A stretch of 51,172 nt of DNA from Chitinophagales bacterium (GTDB lineage: Bacteria > Bacteroidota > Bacteroidia > Chitinophagales > BACL12), in assembly GCA_019694895.1 (NCBI GenBank), contig JAIBBA010000006.1:1-51172 (forward strand), given 5' to 3'. Below, piece by piece: positions 13,074 to 51,172 of the stretch. The notes below the pieces were generated by a model. That model saw nothing but the letters and a program-made list of their open reading frames with translations. It did no database searches and was not told where the DNA came from. Both the position numbers and the translations under genes were made by a program. Positions within the stretch are counted from its first letter, which is position 1; every line of letters begins with the position of its first letter.

Positions 13074-14252
13074 ATGCCCAATGATCTTTTTGAAGGAGTG
13101 GATTATTACCAACTCGATGATTTGCTGACTACCGAACATAAACTCATTCGCGATACTGTTCGGGAATATGTAAAAAAAGAAGTATCACCCATCATTGAAG
13201 AATACGCTCAACGTGCCGAAACACCTAAGCATCTGATCAAAGGCCTTGCCGAGATAGGCGCATTTGGTCCCACAATTCCTGAGGAATACGGCGGCGGCGG
13301 TCTCGATAACATTTCCTACGGATTGATCATGCAAGAGATAGAGCGTGGCGACAGCGGTCTGCGCTCCTTAGTAAGCGTTCAGGGAAGCCTGGTGATGTAT
13401 CCTATCTACACCTTCGGATCTGAAGAGCAAAGGCGCAAATACCTCCCTAAATTGGGTAGCGGTGAAATGATAGGATGTTTTGGACTTACAGAGCCGGATC
13501 ATGGATCTAACCCCGGCGGCATGATCACCAATATCAAGGATATGGGTGACCATTATCTGCTCAATGGCGCTAAAATGTGGATTTCAAATGCGCCGTTTGC
13601 TGATATCGCCGTTGTTTGGGCTAAGGATGAAACAGGTAAGATCAGAGGACTTGTGGTTGAACGAGGCATGGAAGGATTTACAACGCCGGAAACTCACGGA
13701 AAATGGAGTTTGCGTGCATCTGCTACAGGCGAATTGGTGTTCGATAACGTGCGTGTACCAAAAGAAAATATTTTCCCTGAAATTAAAGGATTGAAGGGTC
13801 CATTGATGTGTTTGTCTACTGCCCGCTATGGCATCAGCTGGGGTGTAATTGGTGCGGCTATGGATTGCTATGATACAGCATTGCGCTACAGCAAACAACG
13901 CGTGCAGTTCGGCAAACCTATCGGTGGATTTCAATTGACACAAAAGAAATTGGCTGAAATGGTTACCGAGATCACTAAAGCACAATTACTTGCATGGCGA
14001 TTAGGTGTGCTCAAAAATGAAGGAAAAGCTACACCTGAACAAATATCTATGGCTAAGCGCAATAATGTGAAAATGGCTATCGATATCGCGCGTGAAGCAC
14101 GACAAATATTAGGAGGAATGGGTATCACCGGCGAATATTCAATTATGCGTCACATGATGAATCTTGAGTCTGTAATTACATATGAAGGAACACATGATAT
14201 TCACCTGCTCATTACCGGCGCACATGTTACCGGTCTCGATGCATTCAAATAA
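13074..14252 (+). CDS. gcdH: Acyl-CoA dehydrogenase, glutaryl-CoA dehydrogenase type
   Basis: 392 residues. The FAD/acyl-CoA signatures are GCFGLTEPDHGSNP and AREARQILGGMGITGEY, and the catalytic base is Glu371 in ITYEGTHDIH. The segment RGDSGLRSLVSVQGSLVMYPIY, with Arg97, matches the glutaryl-CoA dehydrogenase subgroup, whose Arg binds the distal carboxylate. GCDH oxidises and decarboxylates glutaryl-CoA to crotonyl-CoA in lysine and tryptophan breakdown. Other parts of such a route (LKR-like enzyme, hydratase family, hydroxyacyl-CoA dehydrogenase) lie elsewhere in the window but not in one operon. A terminator follows. The family is certain; substrate specificity is inferred from these subgroup residues. 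Confidence 0.88.
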   Translation: MPNDLFEGVDYYQLDDLLTTEHKLIRDTVREYVKKEVSPIIEEYAQRAETPKHLIKGLAEIGAFGPTIPEEYGGGGLDNISYGLIMQEIERGDSGLRSLVSVQGSLVMYPIYTFGSEEQRRKYLPKLGSGEMIGCFGLTEPDHGSNPGGMITNIKDMGDHYLLNGAKMWISNAPFADIAVVWAKDETGKIRGLVVERGMEGFTTPETHGKWSLRASATGELVFDNVRVPKENIFPEIKGLKGPLMCLSTARYGISWGVIGAAMDCYDTALRYSKQRVQFGKPIGGFQLTQKKLAEMVTEITKAQLLAWRLGVLKNEGKATPEQISMAKRNNVKMAIDIAREARQILGGMGITGEYSIMRHMMNLESVITYEGTHDIHLLITGAHVTGLDAFK

Positions 14253-20117: not shown

Positions 20118-21245
20118 ATGGGCGACTCAATTATCCTCGACAGTATATTTTACTTGTTTTGTGGTGCTGCGGCGGTGCAGTTATTCTACATATTGTTTTT
20201 TTATTTGCGTTTGGCAAGATATCAGCAGAAATCTGTCATGCAGGATCATGCATTGCCACCCGTAAGCATCATTATTTGCGCAAGGAATGAAGATTCTAAT
20301 CTAAAGAAAAATCTTCCACGCATTTTATCACAGGATTATCCTGAATTTGAGGTAATTGTTGTGGATGATAATTCAGAGGATAGTACTACAGAATACTTAT
20401 TTTTTCTTTCTCAAAAAGAACCAAGACTGAAGCGCACCAGTACACGCAACAGTAATCGAATGATGGCAGGAAAAAAATTCCCGCTTACATTGGGATTGAA
20501 AGCTGCGTCGCATGAAATAGTTTTGTTGACAGATGCCGATTGCTATCCTGCATCAGATAAATGGCTGCGCGAAATGATGAATGGTTATGGTTCGGGAGCA
20601 GAGATCGTGCTGGGTTATGGCGCATATGAAAAACAAACCGGCAGGCTTAACCGACGTATTCGCTATGAAACGGTTTCTTCAGCAATCAATTACCTGAGCT
20701 TCGCATTAGCAGGTTTACCGTACATGGGTGTTGGAAGAAATCTATCTTATAAAAAACACCTCTTCTTTAATTCGAATGGATTTTTCGATCATCGTCATTT
20801 GCCTAGTGGCGATGATGACTTGTTCATAAATATGGTGGCACGTAAGAAAAATACTGCTATCATTATTAATAATGATGCTTTTACCTATTCAGAACCTAAG
20901 GAGACTTGGGATGACTGGCGAGAACAAAAAACAAGGCACCTTTCAACAGCACGGTATTATAGGTTTAAGCATAAATTTTGGCTCGGATTGCAACCTATAA
21001 CACATATCTTATTTTGGCTTTCCGGTATTGCTTCATTGTCACTCTTATACCCATGGTGGTATATAGTTGCGGGAACAATCATACTCCGCTGGTTGTTATT
21101 GCGTTATACTTTGGGTAAGTCGATGCAAAAGCTGGATGAAAAAGACCTGAAAGCCTATATCGAATGGTATGATATCTTGCAGATATTCTATTATTTCCGC
21201 TTTGCTAAAGCTGCCCTTGTGAAAACAAAATATAGATGGGATTAA
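20118..21245 (+). CDS. Membrane-associated family 2 glycosyltransferase
   Basis: 375 residues. An N-terminal membrane helix (~8-30) is followed by a GT-A domain: PPVSIIICARNEDSNL (nucleotide binding), VIVVDDNSEDST, VLLTDADCYP (DxD-like metal site), GDDDLFINMV (acceptor/catalytic acid region) and EQKTRHLST in the place of the QxxRW motif. Two C-terminal helices (~290-335) anchor it. It likely transfers a sugar from a nucleotide donor to a lipid or polysaccharide precursor on the cytoplasmic face; donor and acceptor are unknown. It overlaps the sigma-factor gene by 10 bp, so the two are co-translated. Confidence 0.9.
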   Translation: MGDSIILDSIFYLFCGAAAVQLFYILFFYLRLARYQQKSVMQDHALPPVSIIICARNEDSNLKKNLPRILSQDYPEFEVIVVDDNSEDSTTEYLFFLSQKEPRLKRTSTRNSNRMMAGKKFPLTLGLKAASHEIVLLTDADCYPASDKWLREMMNGYGSGAEIVLGYGAYEKQTGRLNRRIRYETVSSAINYLSFALAGLPYMGVGRNLSYKKHLFFNSNGFFDHRHLPSGDDDLFINMVARKKNTAIIINNDAFTYSEPKETWDDWREQKTRHLSTARYYRFKHKFWLGLQPITHILFWLSGIASLSLLYPWWYIVAGTIILRWLLLRYTLGKSMQKLDEKDLKAYIEWYDILQIFYYFRFAKAALVKTKYRWD

Positions 21246-21838
21246 ACGACAATTTATCAGACCGCGCAAAGGAAGATCTCGCACTTGTAGAAAGTGCACG
21301 CAGAGGTGATCAACGCGCGTACGGTGAATTAATGTCGCGCTACAAGGATACCATTCATTATATGGTACTCAAAATGGTGCACAATCGCGACGATGCCGAG
21401 GACCTTACCATTGAAGCTTTTGGCAAAGCCTTCTTGCACCTCGAGCGCTATACGCCTGATTTCGCTTTCAGCACCTGGTTGTTTAAAATCGCCGTAAATA
21501 ATGCTATCGATTTCATTCGCAAAAAACGATTGCATACACTCAGCCTCGATGATGAACAAGATGAATTCACACGATCGGCATTTACTAATATCCGAACCAA
21601 CAATCCCGATCCGGAAGAGAAGTTTATTAAGGAACAACGCGCTAATATCATGCGCACCATCCTCGATGAATTAAATCCAAAATATAAAGCACTGGTTGAA
21701 ATGCGCTATTTCGACGAACTATCTTATGAGGAAATTTCAGAAGCACTAAACATGCCTCTCGGGACCGTAAAAGCTCAACTCTTCCGCGCAAGAAACCTAC
21801 TTGCTGAAATTTTGGCGGATAGAAGGGCTAAAATGTGA
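21236..21838 (+). CDS. Sigma-70 family (ECF-like) RNA polymerase sigma factor
   Basis: 200 residues with region 2 (YGELMSRYKDTIHYMVLKM, then DAEDLTIEAFGKAFLHLERY and FSTWLFKIAVNNAIDFIRKK) and region 4 (ELNPKYKALVEMRYFDELSY, EEISEALNMPLGTVKAQLFRAR, a clear helix-turn-helix). No region 1.1, 1.2 or 3 is present, as in ECF factors. No anti-sigma gene is adjacent; instead it is coupled to the upstream glycosyltransferase through a 10-bp overlap. The regulon cannot be told. A heptad-repeat array begins 5 bp after its stop. Confidence 0.93.
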   Translation: MGLNDNLSDRAKEDLALVESARRGDQRAYGELMSRYKDTIHYMVLKMVHNRDDAEDLTIEAFGKAFLHLERYTPDFAFSTWLFKIAVNNAIDFIRKKRLHTLSLDDEQDEFTRSAFTNIRTNNPDPEEKFIKEQRANIMRTILDELNPKYKALVEMRYFDELSYEEISEALNMPLGTVKAQLFRARNLLAEILADRRAKM

Positions 21839-21843
21839 TGGGG

Positions 21844-21910
21844 AGGAGAAAGGAGAGAGGAGAGAGGAGAAGGGTGAGTGGTGAGTGGTGAGTGGGTGAG
21901 TGGGTGAGTT
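21844..21910 (+). repeat. Heptad tandem repeats: four AGGAGAR then GTGAGTG units
   Basis: In phase: AGGAGAA, AGGAGAG, AGGAGAG, AGGAGAA, then three GTGAGTG and two 8-bp variants GGTGAGTG/GGTGAGTT. The array starts 5 bp after the sigma-factor stop codon. Confidence 0.92.
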
Positions 21911-21914
21911 TACC

Positions 21915-21934
21915 TCGCCGAGCAGGCGGGTGAA
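21915..21934. repeat. GC-rich element also found near 50931
   Basis: CTCGCCGAGCAGGCGGGTG lies between the two facing heptad arrays. A near copy, CTCGCCGATAGGCGGGTGG, lies at 50932-50950 beside the post-dnaK repeats. Both can form a short CGCC/GGCG hairpin. Confidence 0.6.
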
Positions 21935-21957
21935 ATACAATTCCCAATGCACCAATT

Positions 21958-22003
21958 TCACGATTCACGATTCACGACTCACGACTCACGATTCACGATT
22001 CAC
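21958..22003 (-). repeat. Heptad tandem repeats TCACGAT/TCACGAC reaching into the LKR-like gene
   Basis: Six perfect in-phase units (TCACGAT, TCACGAT, TCACGAC, TCACGAC, TCACGAT, TCACGAT) plus a partial TCAC. The stop codon of the minus-strand gene (complement of TGA at 21993-21995) is the first three bases of the sixth unit. Confidence 0.93.
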
Positions 22004-23204
22004 CGGTAACATAATCTCGTAAATATTCGAAATGCTTATTCAGATTGCCATTTTTGCAGATGGTAGCTTCATCAAGCATACGGGAGTTATCTTGAAATAA
22101 TTCATTCCAAACCGTTGAAATTAATTGCTGTCCAAATTCTTCACTTGCACTTCGCGGTAATTCATTTGGTAAATTATCAATTGCCATAATATCGATGCTT
22201 TCCGGAATGTAGGGAGCAATCTCCATGTCTGTAGCTACATCATAGCCAAATACAGGCTCATTTATGGTTGTAGACCTGATAGTAGCAGGAATACCGCCTT
22301 TCACATCGCAGCTGACATCAGCAATCACCTTTATTTTCCAATCAGTGGCATCCATTTCATTTTTGTGAAATAATGAAGGTGCCGCAGGATTCCAGAAAAT
22401 GCAATTGATCAATACGTCACAAACCTTTGTGTATGGAGAAAAAGTGCAATGATATAATTCCGGATGGCTGTGAAATTCATTGCGGTCATATTTGCCATCG
22501 GACTTGCGGGAATACAAATCATCGCTGTCGAGTACACAAAACACTGCTTCGGAAAATGTTTCGTTGAGCAGAGCCTCTTTGGTAACCTCTCTGACACCAA
22601 TCTTTCTCAGAAATTCAATCGCGCCTTTGCCAACTCTTCCTGTACCTGTAACGATCATTTTAATAACAGGCATCGTCAGTCCGCGGTATTGATATTTTAA
22701 TTCATAATAATCCCTGCAATCTCTGGCTCGTTTTAAGTGTTGTTCACCTAATCGTTGCGCATAGGTCCAAATGGCATTATGTGCACCGATAATTCCGGCC
22801 CACCTGCCAAAAGCGATCACACGATTTCCTTCAGTATTTTTAAGGCACTCGTAATCGATCATGCGCACGTTTTTTTGCATCAGCACTTGCAACAACTTTT
22901 TATTGTGAGGCTGTTTTTTGATGGTGTGACTGAAGAAAAAATATGTTTTTCCCGGAATTAAAAGGTCATAAGGCACCTCCTTCACACCAAAGAGAATATC
23001 ACAGTCGTGCAAATCTTCCTGTAATGTCACATCCAGATCTGTGTATTCATAATCAGCATAGCACCGGCCTTTGCTGGGCTGAACTACAATTTCAATATTG
23101 GGAAACTGTTGGCGAAGTTGTTGTACCTGAGCAGGGATAAGCGGTACACGCGCATCAGGGGGGAATTTAGCCTCACGGATAATGCCTACTTTGAACTGTT
23201 GCAT
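21993..23204 (-). CDS. LKR/saccharopine dehydrogenase-like NAD(P)-dependent enzyme
   Basis: 403 residues from the ATG at 23204; an in-frame TTG at 23213 falls inside the -7 box. The N-terminal AlaDH/PNT-like domain has VGIIREAKFPPDARVPL, then LFGVKEVP, KTYFFFSHTIKKQPHNK and VIAFGRWAGIIGAHNAIWTY, which closely follow the lysine-ketoglutarate reductase domain of animal and plant AASS. A Rossmann motif VTGTGRVGKGAIEFLRKIG follows. These enzymes join lysine and 2-oxoglutarate to saccharopine or run the reverse, in lysine catabolism or synthesis. No separate saccharopine-oxidising partner is adjacent. The last codons (ending GES) are made of the heptad repeat. The reaction direction is not determined. 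Confidence 0.82.
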   Translation of the reverse strand: MQQFKVGIIREAKFPPDARVPLIPAQVQQLRQQFPNIEIVVQPSKGRCYADYEYTDLDVTLQEDLHDCDILFGVKEVPYDLLIPGKTYFFFSHTIKKQPHNKKLLQVLMQKNVRMIDYECLKNTEGNRVIAFGRWAGIIGAHNAIWTYAQRLGEQHLKRARDCRDYYELKYQYRGLTMPVIKMIVTGTGRVGKGAIEFLRKIGVREVTKEALLNETFSEAVFCVLDSDDLYSRKSDGKYDRNEFHSHPELYHCTFSPYTKVCDVLINCIFWNPAAPSLFHKNEMDATDWKIKVIADVSCDVKGGIPATIRSTTINEPVFGYDVATDMEIAPYIPESIDIMAIDNLPNELPRSASEEFGQQLISTVWNELFQDNSRMLDEATICKNGNLNKHFEYLRDYVTGES

Positions 23205-33088: not shown

Positions 33089-33311
33089 TTGGTTGGGGTG
33101 ATTAGCATGTGGTATCCGGTATTGAAAATATTAGGATGATTTTAATTGCTAAATTAATGTGCAACTTCCAATTATCATGGATATTTAACTATGGTGTTCA
33201 AGTCCTGCTTTGGCGGAATGTCGCTGCGCTCCATGAGCAAAATCGCAACCGATCCACTCAACTTCAAAGTACATTCTTCCAAGCCTCAAAAAATCCTCTC
33301 TCCCGTTTCCT

Positions 33312-33381
33312 CTCTCCTTTCTCCTCTCTCCTCTCTCCTCTCTCCTCTCTCCTTTCTCCTTTCTCCTTTCTCCTTTCTCCT
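33312..33381 (-). repeat. Ten in-phase heptads CTCTCCT/TTCTCCT abutting a stop codon
   Basis: CTCTCCT, TTCTCCT, four CTCTCCT, four TTCTCCT, exactly 70 bp, with more degenerate copies at 33295-33311. The last base touches the complement of the TGA stop (33382-33384) of the guanidine-modifying enzyme gene. On that gene's strand the unit is AGGAGAR, the same as after the sigma-factor gene. The remaining upstream gap (33089-33294) shows no gene. Confidence 0.95.
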
Positions 33382-34311
33382 TCAATAGAACATCATTTTC
33401 AAACAGAACACTGATCCTCCGCTTTTCATAAATTCGGTGGTATCGGTTTCGATTACGGGGTTTGCACTTTGTTGGATGATGTTCAAAGAAACGGGATTGC
33501 CTCGTTGAATTACAGCTGCCGATGAATTTTTATTGGTGCCATAAATAATATGTGCATTGCAAGCAAATCCGTCGATGGCTTCATCTTCCGGTATTTCATA
33601 CACACCTTCAAACATGCGGCGAATAATGGCCAGTGATTCCGGTGTGAATGCATCAGGGGCAATAAGTACTTCGGTGTGATTTAATGGGAGAAAGCAAGTA
33701 TCTAAATGGTAGTGATGCTCATTGATAAGTTCGAGAGTGATAATAGGCGCATCAACAATGCGGGAAATTTCATCGTAAACTGCTTTTTCACTGCGAAACC
33801 CATATGCTCCATATAAAACACGTTTTCCGGGATGAGCAATCAAATCGCCCATGCCTTCAAAATGATATTTGCTTTGCAGCTCCACAATTTTATATCCGTG
33901 GTCCTGATAAAAATCTTCGATATATGGAATTTCATTTTGTCGGTTTTCATGGCGCATGCGGCTCATGATGGCAATTTTCTCGCCATTCCACATCACCCAA
34001 GGAAAACTCTGGTTTGCACAAAAAACCATATCCTCCATGCCTTCCACACCATTGATGACAACAACATCATCAAGGAATTTCTGGTTTTTCAATGCGAGAT
34101 AAGAATTGCGGATATTATCCCATTGAATATTTGCACGCTCCTTGTTGATATTGCCTTTTTGATGTTGCATGTATACATTTTTCACATCAACAACATTATA
34201 GTAGTCGGGCGTGCACATCATTACCTTGCGTGGTTCATTGCGATTGTCGCAATCTTCAATCTGGAAATGTACTTCTGAAGGGGAATATGCTTTGGCAAAA
34301 ACCGGTGTCAT
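33382..34311 (-). CDS. Guanidine-group modifying enzyme (arginine deiminase/DDAH-like)
   Basis: 309 residues in the amidinotransferase fold. The catalytic set can be placed: Asp94 in GMEDMVFCAN, Glu152 and Asp156 in FEGMGDLI, His202 and Asp204 in YHLDTCF, and the nucleophilic Cys303 near the C-terminus in SVFCLKMMF. Family members hydrolyse arginine or methylarginine to citrulline, or act as amidinotransferases. No arcB/arcC, agmatinase or ornithine aminotransferase is adjacent, so the pathway is open; a DDAH-like or single-step arginine deiminase role is most likely. It lies 72 bp downstream of the hydroxyacyl-CoA dehydrogenase gene on the same strand. Confidence 0.85.
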   Translation of the reverse strand: MTPVFAKAYSPSEVHFQIEDCDNRNEPRKVMMCTPDYYNVVDVKNVYMQHQKGNINKERANIQWDNIRNSYLALKNQKFLDDVVVINGVEGMEDMVFCANQSFPWVMWNGEKIAIMSRMRHENRQNEIPYIEDFYQDHGYKIVELQSKYHFEGMGDLIAHPGKRVLYGAYGFRSEKAVYDEISRIVDAPIITLELINEHHYHLDTCFLPLNHTEVLIAPDAFTPESLAIIRRMFEGVYEIPEDEAIDGFACNAHIIYGTNKNSSAAVIQRGNPVSLNIIQQSANPVIETDTTEFMKSGGSVFCLKMMFY

Positions 34312-37714: not shown

Positions 37715-38644
37715 ATGATCTGTAAAGTTACAAAATGCTTGGTGTTACTCCTGGTGGTATTTGGTATACAGCAGTTGAAAGCTCAGGTTGAAACGAGCCC
37801 TGTTCAGATCATAACCGTTGATTCATTTGTTGTTCATGCCGTTCGGGATGGCCTGAATGTGCAGGATTTTGTGCAAATGATACAGGAGGATACTACATTT
37901 TATCGTGCATTTCAAAACCTTCGACGCATTGAATATGATGGCAGTGCAACCGTACGTATGTTTAACGAAGACCATCTTTCCATTGCATCTTACAGCAATA
38001 GGATGTCGCAATTCCTGGATGGCAAATGCAGGTGGATGCAATTTCCTTTTGAAGTTAACACCGGTGATTTTTTTGATAAACACAAGCAATTAAATTATTA
38101 CACTGCCGGTGTATTCAGTTATATTTTTTTGTATCGAGATACCATCTGTGGTAACATCGTAGAAACAGACAACAATGCGGGTAGCGACGATAAATTGGAA
38201 TTGCGCAAAGAACAACTCAAAACACTTATTTTCAACCCTGGACGTCCGGTAAACGGCATTCCATTAATAGGCGATAAAATGGAAATATTCAGCCCGGAGA
38301 TGCAACAGTATTACGACTATACCATCGCGCGCGAGAAATTTGCAACGGGTGTTGATTGTTTTGTTTTCACCATCAAGAAAAAACCGGAAGCTGAAAAAGG
38401 TAAAGATGTCGTGATTAATGAACTCACTACTTGGTTTGATGTTGACAGCAAGGAGATTGTAGCTCGAAATTATCAATTAAGTTATTTCACTTCGCTATTT
38501 GATTTTGATGTGAGCATGAAGGTGCGTATGGGCACCATTGATGGATATCGTGTTCCTGTATCCATAAAGTATTCAGGCTACTGGGACATCCCATTCCGCG
38601 ATCCTGAAATTGGAAATATCGATATATCGGTTTGGGGGAGATAG
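37715..38644 (+). CDS. Exported protein of unknown function
   Basis: 309 residues. A signal peptide (LVLLLVVFGIQQLKAQ) precedes a mixed alpha/beta domain. Lines of note are DGLNVQDFVQMIQEDTTFY, RRIEYDGSATVRMF, KEQLKTLIFNPGRPVNGIP and the end NELTTWFDVDSKEIVARNYQ, with a beta-sheet-rich C-terminus recalling LolA-like lipid-binding folds. I do not recognise a named family, and the LolA resemblance is only by eye. The gene is divergent from the M1 peptidase and 20 bp away; a near -7 box TAATTTTA ends 5 nt before the ATG. A heptad/octad array begins right after the stop codon. Confidence 0.82.
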   Translation: MICKVTKCLVLLLVVFGIQQLKAQVETSPVQIITVDSFVVHAVRDGLNVQDFVQMIQEDTTFYRAFQNLRRIEYDGSATVRMFNEDHLSIASYSNRMSQFLDGKCRWMQFPFEVNTGDFFDKHKQLNYYTAGVFSYIFLYRDTICGNIVETDNNAGSDDKLELRKEQLKTLIFNPGRPVNGIPLIGDKMEIFSPEMQQYYDYTIAREKFATGVDCFVFTIKKKPEAEKGKDVVINELTTWFDVDSKEIVARNYQLSYFTSLFDFDVSMKVRMGTIDGYRVPVSIKYSGYWDIPFRDPEIGNIDISVWGR

Positions 38645-38716
38645 GTGAGTGGGTCAGTGGGTGAGTGGATGAGTGTTTCGTGAATCGTGACTCGTGAATG
38701 GTGAGTAGTGACTGAT
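38645..38716 (+). repeat. Octad/heptad repeats GTGAGTGG and CGTGAAT immediately after a stop codon
   Basis: Begins at the first base after the TAG stop of the 37715 gene: GTGAGTGG, GTCAGTGG, GTGAGTGG, ATGAGTG, then CGTGAAT, CGTGACT, CGTGAAT, GGTGAGT, AGTGACT. Confidence 0.9.
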
Positions 38717-38873
38717 CCTTTGACTCCGCTAACTCCGCAAACTCCGCGATTGAACAAGGGTGTATCGTGAATCATCATTTATCATCCAACACATTCTTTA
38801 AAACCCATTTAACCGCTAAGGCCACGGAGAGGAACACAGAGTTGAGAAAATTCAAACTCACCCACTGACCCAC
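38649..38873. repeat. 18-bp perfect inverted repeat with 189-bp spacing
   Basis: GTGGGTCAGTGGGTGAGT at 38649-38666 is the exact reverse complement of 38856-38873. Between the arms are a 9-bp triplicate (CTCCGCTAA, CTCCGCAAA, CTCCGCGA near 38724-38750) and a segment resembling common Bacteroidota intergenic CGCTAAGG/CACAGAG sequences. The 388-bp gap 38645-39032 holds no gene. Confidence 0.9.
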
Positions 38874-38896
38874 CCACGATATTTGTATCTGGGATT

Positions 38897-38942
38897 GGTA
38901 TCAGGTATCAAGTATCAAGTATCAGGTATCAAGTATCAGGTA
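38897..38942. repeat. Heptad repeats GGTATCA/AGTATCA
   Basis: GGTATCA, GGTATCA, AGTATCA, AGTATCA, GGTATCA, AGTATCA, then GGTA. On the panB strand the units read TGATACC/TGATACT, as they do after dnaK at 51042-51069. Confidence 0.93.
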
Positions 38943-38948
38943 AAAAAA

Positions 38949-39032
38949 TCACGATTCACGATTCACGATTCACGACTCACGACTCACCACTCACGATTCA
39001 CCACTCACCACTCACCACTCACCACTCACCCC
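38949..39032 (-). repeat. Twelve in-phase heptads TCACGAT/TCACGAC/TCACCAC abutting panB stop
   Basis: Exactly 84 bp: three TCACGAT, two TCACGAC, TCACCAC, TCACGAT, four TCACCAC and TCACCCC. The next three bases (TCA, 39033-39035) are the complement of the panB TGA stop, in phase with the TCA that opens every unit. Confidence 0.95.
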
Positions 39033-39860
39033 TCAATACTCCTCCATATCATTAGGAAAATCATTCGACTTCACATCGGCGATATATTGGCTGACACCTT
39101 TTTTGATATCGTCATATAGATTGAGGTATCTGCGTAAAAATCGGGGTTTGAATTCTTTGGTGATACCGAGCATATCGTGCATTACTAAAACCTGACCGTC
39201 AACACCACCGCCAGCGCCAATTCCTATAACCGGGATATGAAGTTTGGCTGCAACTTTTTCACCAAGGGAGGCAGGGATTTTTTCTAATACAAGAGAGAAA
39301 CAGCCCAATTGCTCCAGTAACTGCGCATCTTCATACAGTTTTTGAGCTTCCATTTCTTCAGTAGCCCTAACCGTATATGTCCCGAATTTGTAGATGGATT
39401 GCGGTGTAAGTCCAAGGTGACCCATTACAGGAATACCGGCAGAGAGTATCCTTTCGATAGACTCTTTCACCTCACGTCCACCTTCCAGTTTCACTGCATG
39501 CGCCCCTGATTCTTTCATAATGCGGATGGTTGAATCAAGCGCCACTTTTGAATTCCCTTGATAGGAGCCGAATGGCAGGTCTACAACCACCAGACACCTG
39601 TCAATGGCACGCACTACGCTGGCAGCATGGTAAATCATCTGGTCCAAGGTGATGGGCAGGGTAGTCTCGTGACCGGCCATAACGTTAGAAGCACTGTCGC
39701 CCACTAAAAGCACGTCAACCCCGGCATCATCAAGGATGCGAGCCATGGAGAAGTCGTAGGCTGTAAGCATAGAAATCTTCACCCCGTGCTCCTTCATTTC
39801 CTGAAGGGTGTGGACGGTTACACGCTTTACTTTGTTGAAATCAGGCTGGGCAGACGACAT
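39033..39860 (-). CDS. panB: 3-methyl-2-oxobutanoate hydroxymethyltransferase
   Basis: 275 residues from the ATG at 39860 ([16 protein letters not shown]); an upstream in-frame ATG at 39902 precedes a near -7 box (TATCTTTC, 39880-39887) and is less likely. PanB signatures: [34 protein letters not shown] (Asp/Mg site), [17 protein letters not shown] (Glu) and [19 protein letters not shown]. It adds a hydroxymethyl group from methylenetetrahydrofolate to 2-oxoisovalerate for pantothenate and CoA. The conserved C-D in the canonical GAG-x-x-CDGQ appears as GAGGGVDGQ, so the cysteine is replaced by valine. panC is not nearby. Confidence 0.94.
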
Positions 39861-39975
39861 GACACTAGATTTTTCGGGGGAAAGATACACCATATTTTGC
39901 ATGAACCTTTGTGTATCAGGGGGTTTCGCACATTAAAACTTTTCTTAAACATGCCCTTCCAGGGTTAAAACACAG

Positions 39976-50907: not shown

Positions 50908-50960
50908 ATGAAATGCTTTTCGTGAACTTGCCTCGCCGATAGGCGGGTGGCGCCCCGTCC

Positions 50961-51172
50961 CACTACCGATCGTGAGTCGTGAATCGTGAGTCGTGAGTGA
51001 GGTGCGTACTAGAGAATCGGGTACACGATGCGAACATGCATTGATATCTGATACCTGATACTTGATAATCAATACCCACTACCAACCGTGAGTCGTGAAT
51101 CGTGAGTCGTGAGTGAGGTGCGTACTAGAGAATCGGGTACATGATGCGAACATGCATTGATACTGATACTTG
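50961..51172 (+). repeat. 116-bp tandem repeat containing heptads, continuing beyond the window
   Basis: Unit 1 (50961-51076) and unit 2 (51077-51172, cut by the edge) share CACTACC, four heptads CGTGAGT/CGTGAAT, and the stretch GAGGTGCGTACTAGAGAATC (51088+ has one), then GATGCGAACATGCAT, differing by few bases (for example GTACACGATG versus GTACATGATG) and one 8-bp gap in the TGATACC heptads. Unit 1 ends with TGATATC, TGATACC, TGATACT, TGATAAT, CAATACC. The gap after dnaK (50852-51172) has no gene. Confidence 0.9.

Follow-up and report, generated by a model that had tools for sequence, protein, structure and literature searches.

Long intergenic repeats with seven-base units include the STRR heptads of Cyanobacteria. 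In the closest described systems, GGGAATC or (GGGANTN)n in Xanthomonas and GGGGA(C/T)T in Nostoc/Anabaena form genome-wide intergenic heptads with a G-rich strand (PLoS One 2015, PMC4692102). Those downstream of genes lie mostly 0-50 bp past the stop codon on the coding strand, some overlapping the stop; their 5' side is nearer the open reading frame (ORF) in either ORF orientation, and inverted pairs are frequent between convergent genes (PMC4692102). Direct repeats of TAACTGA occur in marine Beggiatoaceae and in some Cyanobacteria and Bacteroidetes (Front Microbiol 2015, PMC4679880). They sit mostly just upstream of start codons, have a patchy, horizontally distributed look and, as MacGregor described, stop all three frames in the forward orientation, with 13 sets overlapping the stop of the upstream gene (PMC4679880). 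Long simple sequence repeats (LSSR), as summarized in that paper, have units of 5-11 nt, with heptanucleotides the most abundant (Mrazek 2007, cited in PMC4679880).

Here we describe heptad arrays in a 51,172-nt stretch of DNA (the window; contig JAIBBA010000006.1) from a Chitinophagales bacterium (assembly GCA_019694895.1), together with their counterparts elsewhere in the genome. Sense heptads that hug or overlap stop codons are already published for Xanthomonas, Nostoc and Beggiatoaceae; the units and the composite order found here are different. As in Xanthomonas and Nostoc, the G-rich strand is the coding strand at the stop, some arrays overlap the stop, the 5' end of the repeat is nearer the ORF, and inverted pairs occur at convergent genes. 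Unlike those systems, the units are SGTGANT, GGAGARA and TGATACY, they form several classes in a fixed order, and the host belongs to a different phylum. The runs of three to four Gs needed for the G-quadruplexes reported there are also absent from the array studied here, which has no GGG tract; GGTGAGT and GGAGARA carry GG only. With TAACTGA the arrays share an intergenic seven-base unit that holds a stop, forward stops in all frames, overlap with upstream stops and a patchy spread. The unit differs, however, TAACTGA sets sit mostly before start codons, and no TAACTGA tandem (TAACTGATAACTGA) was found in this genome. Like LSSR and STRR, these are abundant, long intergenic heptanucleotide repeats, of a kind attributed to polymerase slippage: many tandem 7-nt sites, far above chance, lie mostly outside coding sequence. 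Unlike LSSR and STRR, their shared unit, strand, order and junctions point to copying besides slippage. Because the stop-hugging behavior is the same while the unit and G-tracts differ, we regard the arrays as a further case of the described heptad class.

The end of the LKR-like gene

The gene at 21993-23204 (minus strand, ATG start at 23204) encodes a protein with AlaDh/PNT-type N and C domains (Pfam PF05222, 4e-21; PF01262, 1e-5). Its best match among solved structures is the lysine-ketoglutarate reductase (LKR) part of human AASS (8dda, 5e-42). Given these domains and this closest solved relative, the name LKR-like seems fair, and the product would be an enzyme of the lysine-breakdown type.

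The gene ends in a heptad array that lies in sense to it (21956-22004, minus strand). Seven units follow one another from 22004 to 21956: GGTGAAT, CGTGAAT, CGTGAGT, CGTGAGT, CGTGAAT, CGTGAAT and CGTGAAA. Tandem Repeats Finder (TRF) reports a period of 7 at 21957-22003, with 6.7 copies, 95% matches and a score of 80. Read on the minus strand, the gene end is TAT GTT ACC GGT GAA TCG TGA ATC GTG AGT CGT GAG TCG TGA ATC, which gives the protein the C-terminus RDYVTGES. The TGA stop (21993-21995) falls within the second heptad (CGTGAAT, 21997-21991), and the last three sense codons, the repeat-like GGT GAA TCG (G-E-S; 22004-21996), take seven bases from the first heptad and two from the next. The preliminary description had proposed that the stop and the codons before it are made of repeat sequence, and the sequence, the TRF result and the ORF end bear this out. 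The stop of the LKR-like gene and the two or three codons before it belong to the heptad array. Judged from orthologue ends, the final G is probably ancestral, whereas the stop is array-made and so, probably, is ES, which lies in a freely drifting tail.

The same description held that the repeat sets the C-terminus of the protein and suggested an alignment of orthologues. Among the 28 informative array-free orthologues that we aligned, none ends in GES with the codons GGT GAA TCG (0/28); such an ending is what the description had named as its refutation. They stop 2-13 residues past a conserved LxDY motif, with ends such as YVAG*, TAGD*, VAGRE*, VDGKE*, YVS* and YVEK*; the window protein stops 5 residues past the motif. 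Thus, the stop and about two codons are indeed repeat-derived, but the statement that the repeat sets the C-terminus is overstated, since array-free orthologues end at nearly the same place. From these alignments, it appears to carry no evident weight for the protein. Taken alone, a repeat-made stop that alters two residues at a variable C-terminus is of little consequence, and the protein is essentially unchanged.

The closest comparison comes from a genome of the same genus (G001), whose orthologue is 74% identical and ends FEYLRDYAS-TGA. Its end codons are TAT GCT TCC TGA, with no heptads at the gene end. Synteny is kept: the gene is flanked by a nuclease gene and, in convergent orientation, by an ECF sigma factor gene. 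An array-free orthologue within the genus supports a repeat origin of the stop and of about two codons. At about 75% amino acid identity, however, G001 is too distant to reveal what spacer this lineage had natively, and the comparison does not separate insertion from growth or replacement.

Sense arrays at stop codons

The array at the LKR-like gene is one of many. With up to two mismatches, the 21-mer CGTGAATCGTGAATCGTGAAT matches at 131 sites across the 3.29 Mb of this genome, and the reversed pattern, used as a control, at 0; the array is therefore not a product of chance. GGTGAGT, GGAGARA and TGATACY are abundant as well. Heptad arrays are mostly intergenic, and predicted genes are overlapped at their 3' end only.

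Genes were called with a simple codon model in stretches fetched around the repeat sites, and the distances between arrays and stops were taken from these. GTGA-type arrays starting within 20 nt of a stop were in sense in 17 cases and in antisense in 0, and GGAGARA arrays in 10 and 0, respectively. When arrays were placed at random inside their intergenic regions, none of 20,000 trials put as many sense arrays next to stops. In five genomes from other families of the order, the split at stops was 17 sense to 1 antisense, and a wider genome set, with a 25-nt cutoff, gave 26 against 4. For TGATACY arrays near stops the counts were 0 sense and 2 antisense; these arrays do not abut stops, and the adjacency is therefore not common to every heptad. 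Arrays turn their 5' end toward the nearer ORF, whichever way that ORF is read, in 37 cases against 13 (37/50; P = 0.0009). A general sense excess downstream of genes was considered and rejected: when distance is ignored the excess is weak (tandem genes, 8 versus 5; convergent genes, 7 versus 3), and the effect is limited to the immediate neighborhood of the stop codon. Arrays also occur between divergent genes (eight regions).

The earlier account of the LKR-like gene missed that the same junction occurs at dozens of genes, here and in other genomes. Four further gene ends in the window have sense arrays at the stop (21838, 33382, 38644 and 39033). The convergent ECF sigma factor gene (21236-21838, plus strand) has a TGA stop at 21836-21838 that is directly followed by purine heptads of the GGAGARA type and then by GGTGAGT heptads (21839-21909, plus strand), in sense to the sigma gene and forming the inverted partner of the LKR array. 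A GGAGARA array (33294-33384, minus strand) runs from the TGA stop (33384-33382) of the gene at 33382-34311, whose counterpart in G001 is array-free at this point and stops at the identical residue with TAA. At 38642-38713 (plus strand), the TAG stop of the gene at 37715-38644 is immediately followed by GTGAGTGG and then by CGTGANT heptads. Opposite it, the TGA stop of the gene at 39033-39902 is immediately followed by TGAGTGG and then by CGTGAAT heptads (38947-39035, minus strand); TGATACY heptads after TTTTTTTACC (38897-38942, minus strand) lie at the distal end of the 38947-39032 array, in the composite order described below. Thus, in both convergent pairs (21838/21993 and 38644/39033) each gene has its own array. 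TGATACY heptads and CTCCGC-type repeats lie between the arrays of the two convergent stops at 38642-39035, and the matching G001 spacer is about 80 bp long and contains an inverted repeat without heptads.

Sense arrays that sit strand-specifically at gene ends could be functional 3'-end elements. G-rich arrays, especially facing pairs between convergent genes, would then be kept as RNA or DNA structures (a stem-loop, bidirectional terminator, R-loop or G-rich roadblock) with a task in stopping transcription or in shielding the 3' ends of mRNAs. The facing arrays at 21874-22004 could form a long imperfect stem (RNA z score of -4.3 for the plus strand and -3.2 for the minus strand), and the stretch at 21839-22020 folds better than 200 of 200 shuffles on both strands. 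A few arrays begin right after an intrinsic terminator, and Xanthomonas transcripts start or stop more often at G-quadruplex-forming heptad repeats (PMC4692102). However, any two arrays of one family that face each other will necessarily pair; the fold therefore adds no independent evidence and at most permits a role like that of a terminator. Many arrays stand alone or come after a normal terminator (on its 3' side), eight regions with arrays are between divergent genes, the same genes are array-free in G001, and the Xanthomonas study did not find a regulatory role (PMC4692102). We consider a function of this kind unlikely, although it deserves some weight. Note that at three loci (L088, L118 and L121) arrays begin directly after the T-run of an intrinsic terminator. 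This arrangement is striking by eye, but only a handful of cases appeared in a systematic test, and we make no claim from it.

To compare protein ends, we searched the C-terminal pieces of array-abutting genes in G001 and aligned the ends. Stop positions agree within a few codons and are often identical, and the conserved ends include NVH*, RFN*, EAH*, EEY*, YYF*, RYE* and KLS*. The proteins thus keep their native ends even where an array directly adjoins the gene. The stop codons themselves are skewed: TAA is found at 0 of 17 GTGA-type and 1 of 10 GGAGARA array-abutting stops in this genome, compared with 19 of the 34 other stops in the window. This near-absence of TAA fits arrays that extend as far as the first base of the stop, a T, and complete the codon with GA or AG of their own. 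A preference of arrays for joining at already existing TGA or TAG stops is a live alternative. We do not use a change from TAA to TGA as proof of overwriting; control genes swap stops too, with TAA in G001 for four of the seven that have TGA here.

The units themselves account for the position of the stop inside the repeat. The sense GTGA-type unit is seven bases long and holds TGA, and every frame meets a stop within 21 nt; because 7 is not a multiple of 3, a gene that enters a sense array stops almost at once. The antisense strand (ATTCACG) is open in all frames. By contrast, GGAGARA is free of stop codons in all frames of both strands but is equally restricted to the sense orientation at stops (10 versus 0). 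Supplying a stop therefore cannot be the whole cause, and the idea that an array is tolerated only because it provides one is insufficient.

A composite element and its possible origins

Heptad classes are arranged on one strand in the module order (GGAGARA)n-(GGTGAGT)n-(CGTGANT)n-TTTTTACC-(TGATACY)n. Adjacent class pairs in this genome follow the fixed order and strand in 46 cases, with 6 against (P = 1e-8). Thirteen sites in this genome carry the junction GTGANTTTTTACCTGATAC, which a search of 11 other genomes did not find. Common junctions and a common order favor the view that a composite element was copied within the lineage, with slippage tuning the number of units.

These observations bear on whether the array could have grown locally, by replication slippage from the final codons of the gene (GGTGAATCGTGA), with the stop ancestral and the repeat derived. 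Stop positions are conserved relative to orthologues, and most junctions already have a TGA or TAG, as such growth would have it. But unrelated gene ends, seeded independently, would yield unrelated units, whereas identical units, order and strand recur at more than 60 loci in this genome, and the unit is found in other families too. The G001 gene end (TAT GCT TCC TGA) also lacks a heptad. With units, order and junctions common genome-wide, independent local seeding from the stop is largely refuted, and we regard it as quite improbable for the LKR-like gene.

In the reading that we favor, with a probability of about 0.62, the end of the LKR-like gene meets the 5' end of a polar heptad element that is dispersed between genes, lies here in sense orientation and is copied around the genome. 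Copies of the element, or parts of it, would be pasted between genes, where arrays would lengthen and shorten by slippage and delete the native spacer. Such deletion would halt at the last base protected by selection, once only the final sense codon and the first base of the stop, a T, are left. An array of the GTGA type in sense orientation would be harmless there, as T followed by GA or AG from the repeat would restore TGA or TAG. Most likely, then, the arrays are a polar composite intergenic repeat that has been copied genome-wide and is allowed to reach the last essential base of a gene but not to pass it. A more active route is possible but doubtful: a strand-specific process may deposit the ordered heptad composite at gene 3' ends, its 5' end joined to the last coding base. 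If so, the stop would be rebuilt from T plus the repeat, and convergent genes would each receive their own copy. Intergenic repeats would then move or grow in a new way, guided by the ends of genes and seen independently in several Bacteroidota families. The junctions are an unusually clean data set: they are specific to one strand, can be compared with orthologues that lack arrays and include, as an internal control, a heptad class without stops. They bear on why bacterial heptads hug stops, a question left open by the Xanthomonas, Nostoc and Beggiatoaceae papers.

Of 199 genomes in the order, 13 have CGTGANT triplets; a phylum-wide set of 396 genomes likewise has 13. Their distribution is patchy, and close relatives have none or nearly none. 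Horizontal transfer was considered for this patchy spread and set aside: the reversed control is itself abundant in some genomes of the phylum, which makes convergence possible. In one family (f38; for example, G407, G557 and G286), the reversed control, three tandem copies of TNAGTGC, is highly abundant. Amplification of varied heptad words is common in this phylum. G001 has a single CGTGAGT array (locus L119, contig C182, around 13939-13966). It is followed by CTGGTAG/CTGGAAG-like heptads in the place that TGATACY takes here, which looks like an exchange of the distal module.

Repeats of this kind also raise the matter of assembly. Many contigs here end inside or beside heptad arrays (C151, C119, C227, C235 and C170), and the arrays probably explain the fragmentation of the assembly into 235 contigs. 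Contig ends of this sort (for example, C151, C119 and C235) could suggest that the junctions are assembly or binning artefacts of a fragmented metagenome-assembled genome. Against this, the LKR array lies mid-contig between syntenic genes, and arrays abut stops in nearly complete genomes as well (G113, a single 3.15-Mb contig, and large contigs of G125); we judge an artefact highly improbable. Near the end of the window's own contig lie two more CGTGANT arrays (50970-51114, plus strand). The terminal stretch at 50929-51172 combines CGTGAGT arrays with a direct duplication of roughly 116 bp and contains CTTGCCTCGCCGATAGGCGGG, a GC-rich hairpin element that is also found inside many other arrays.
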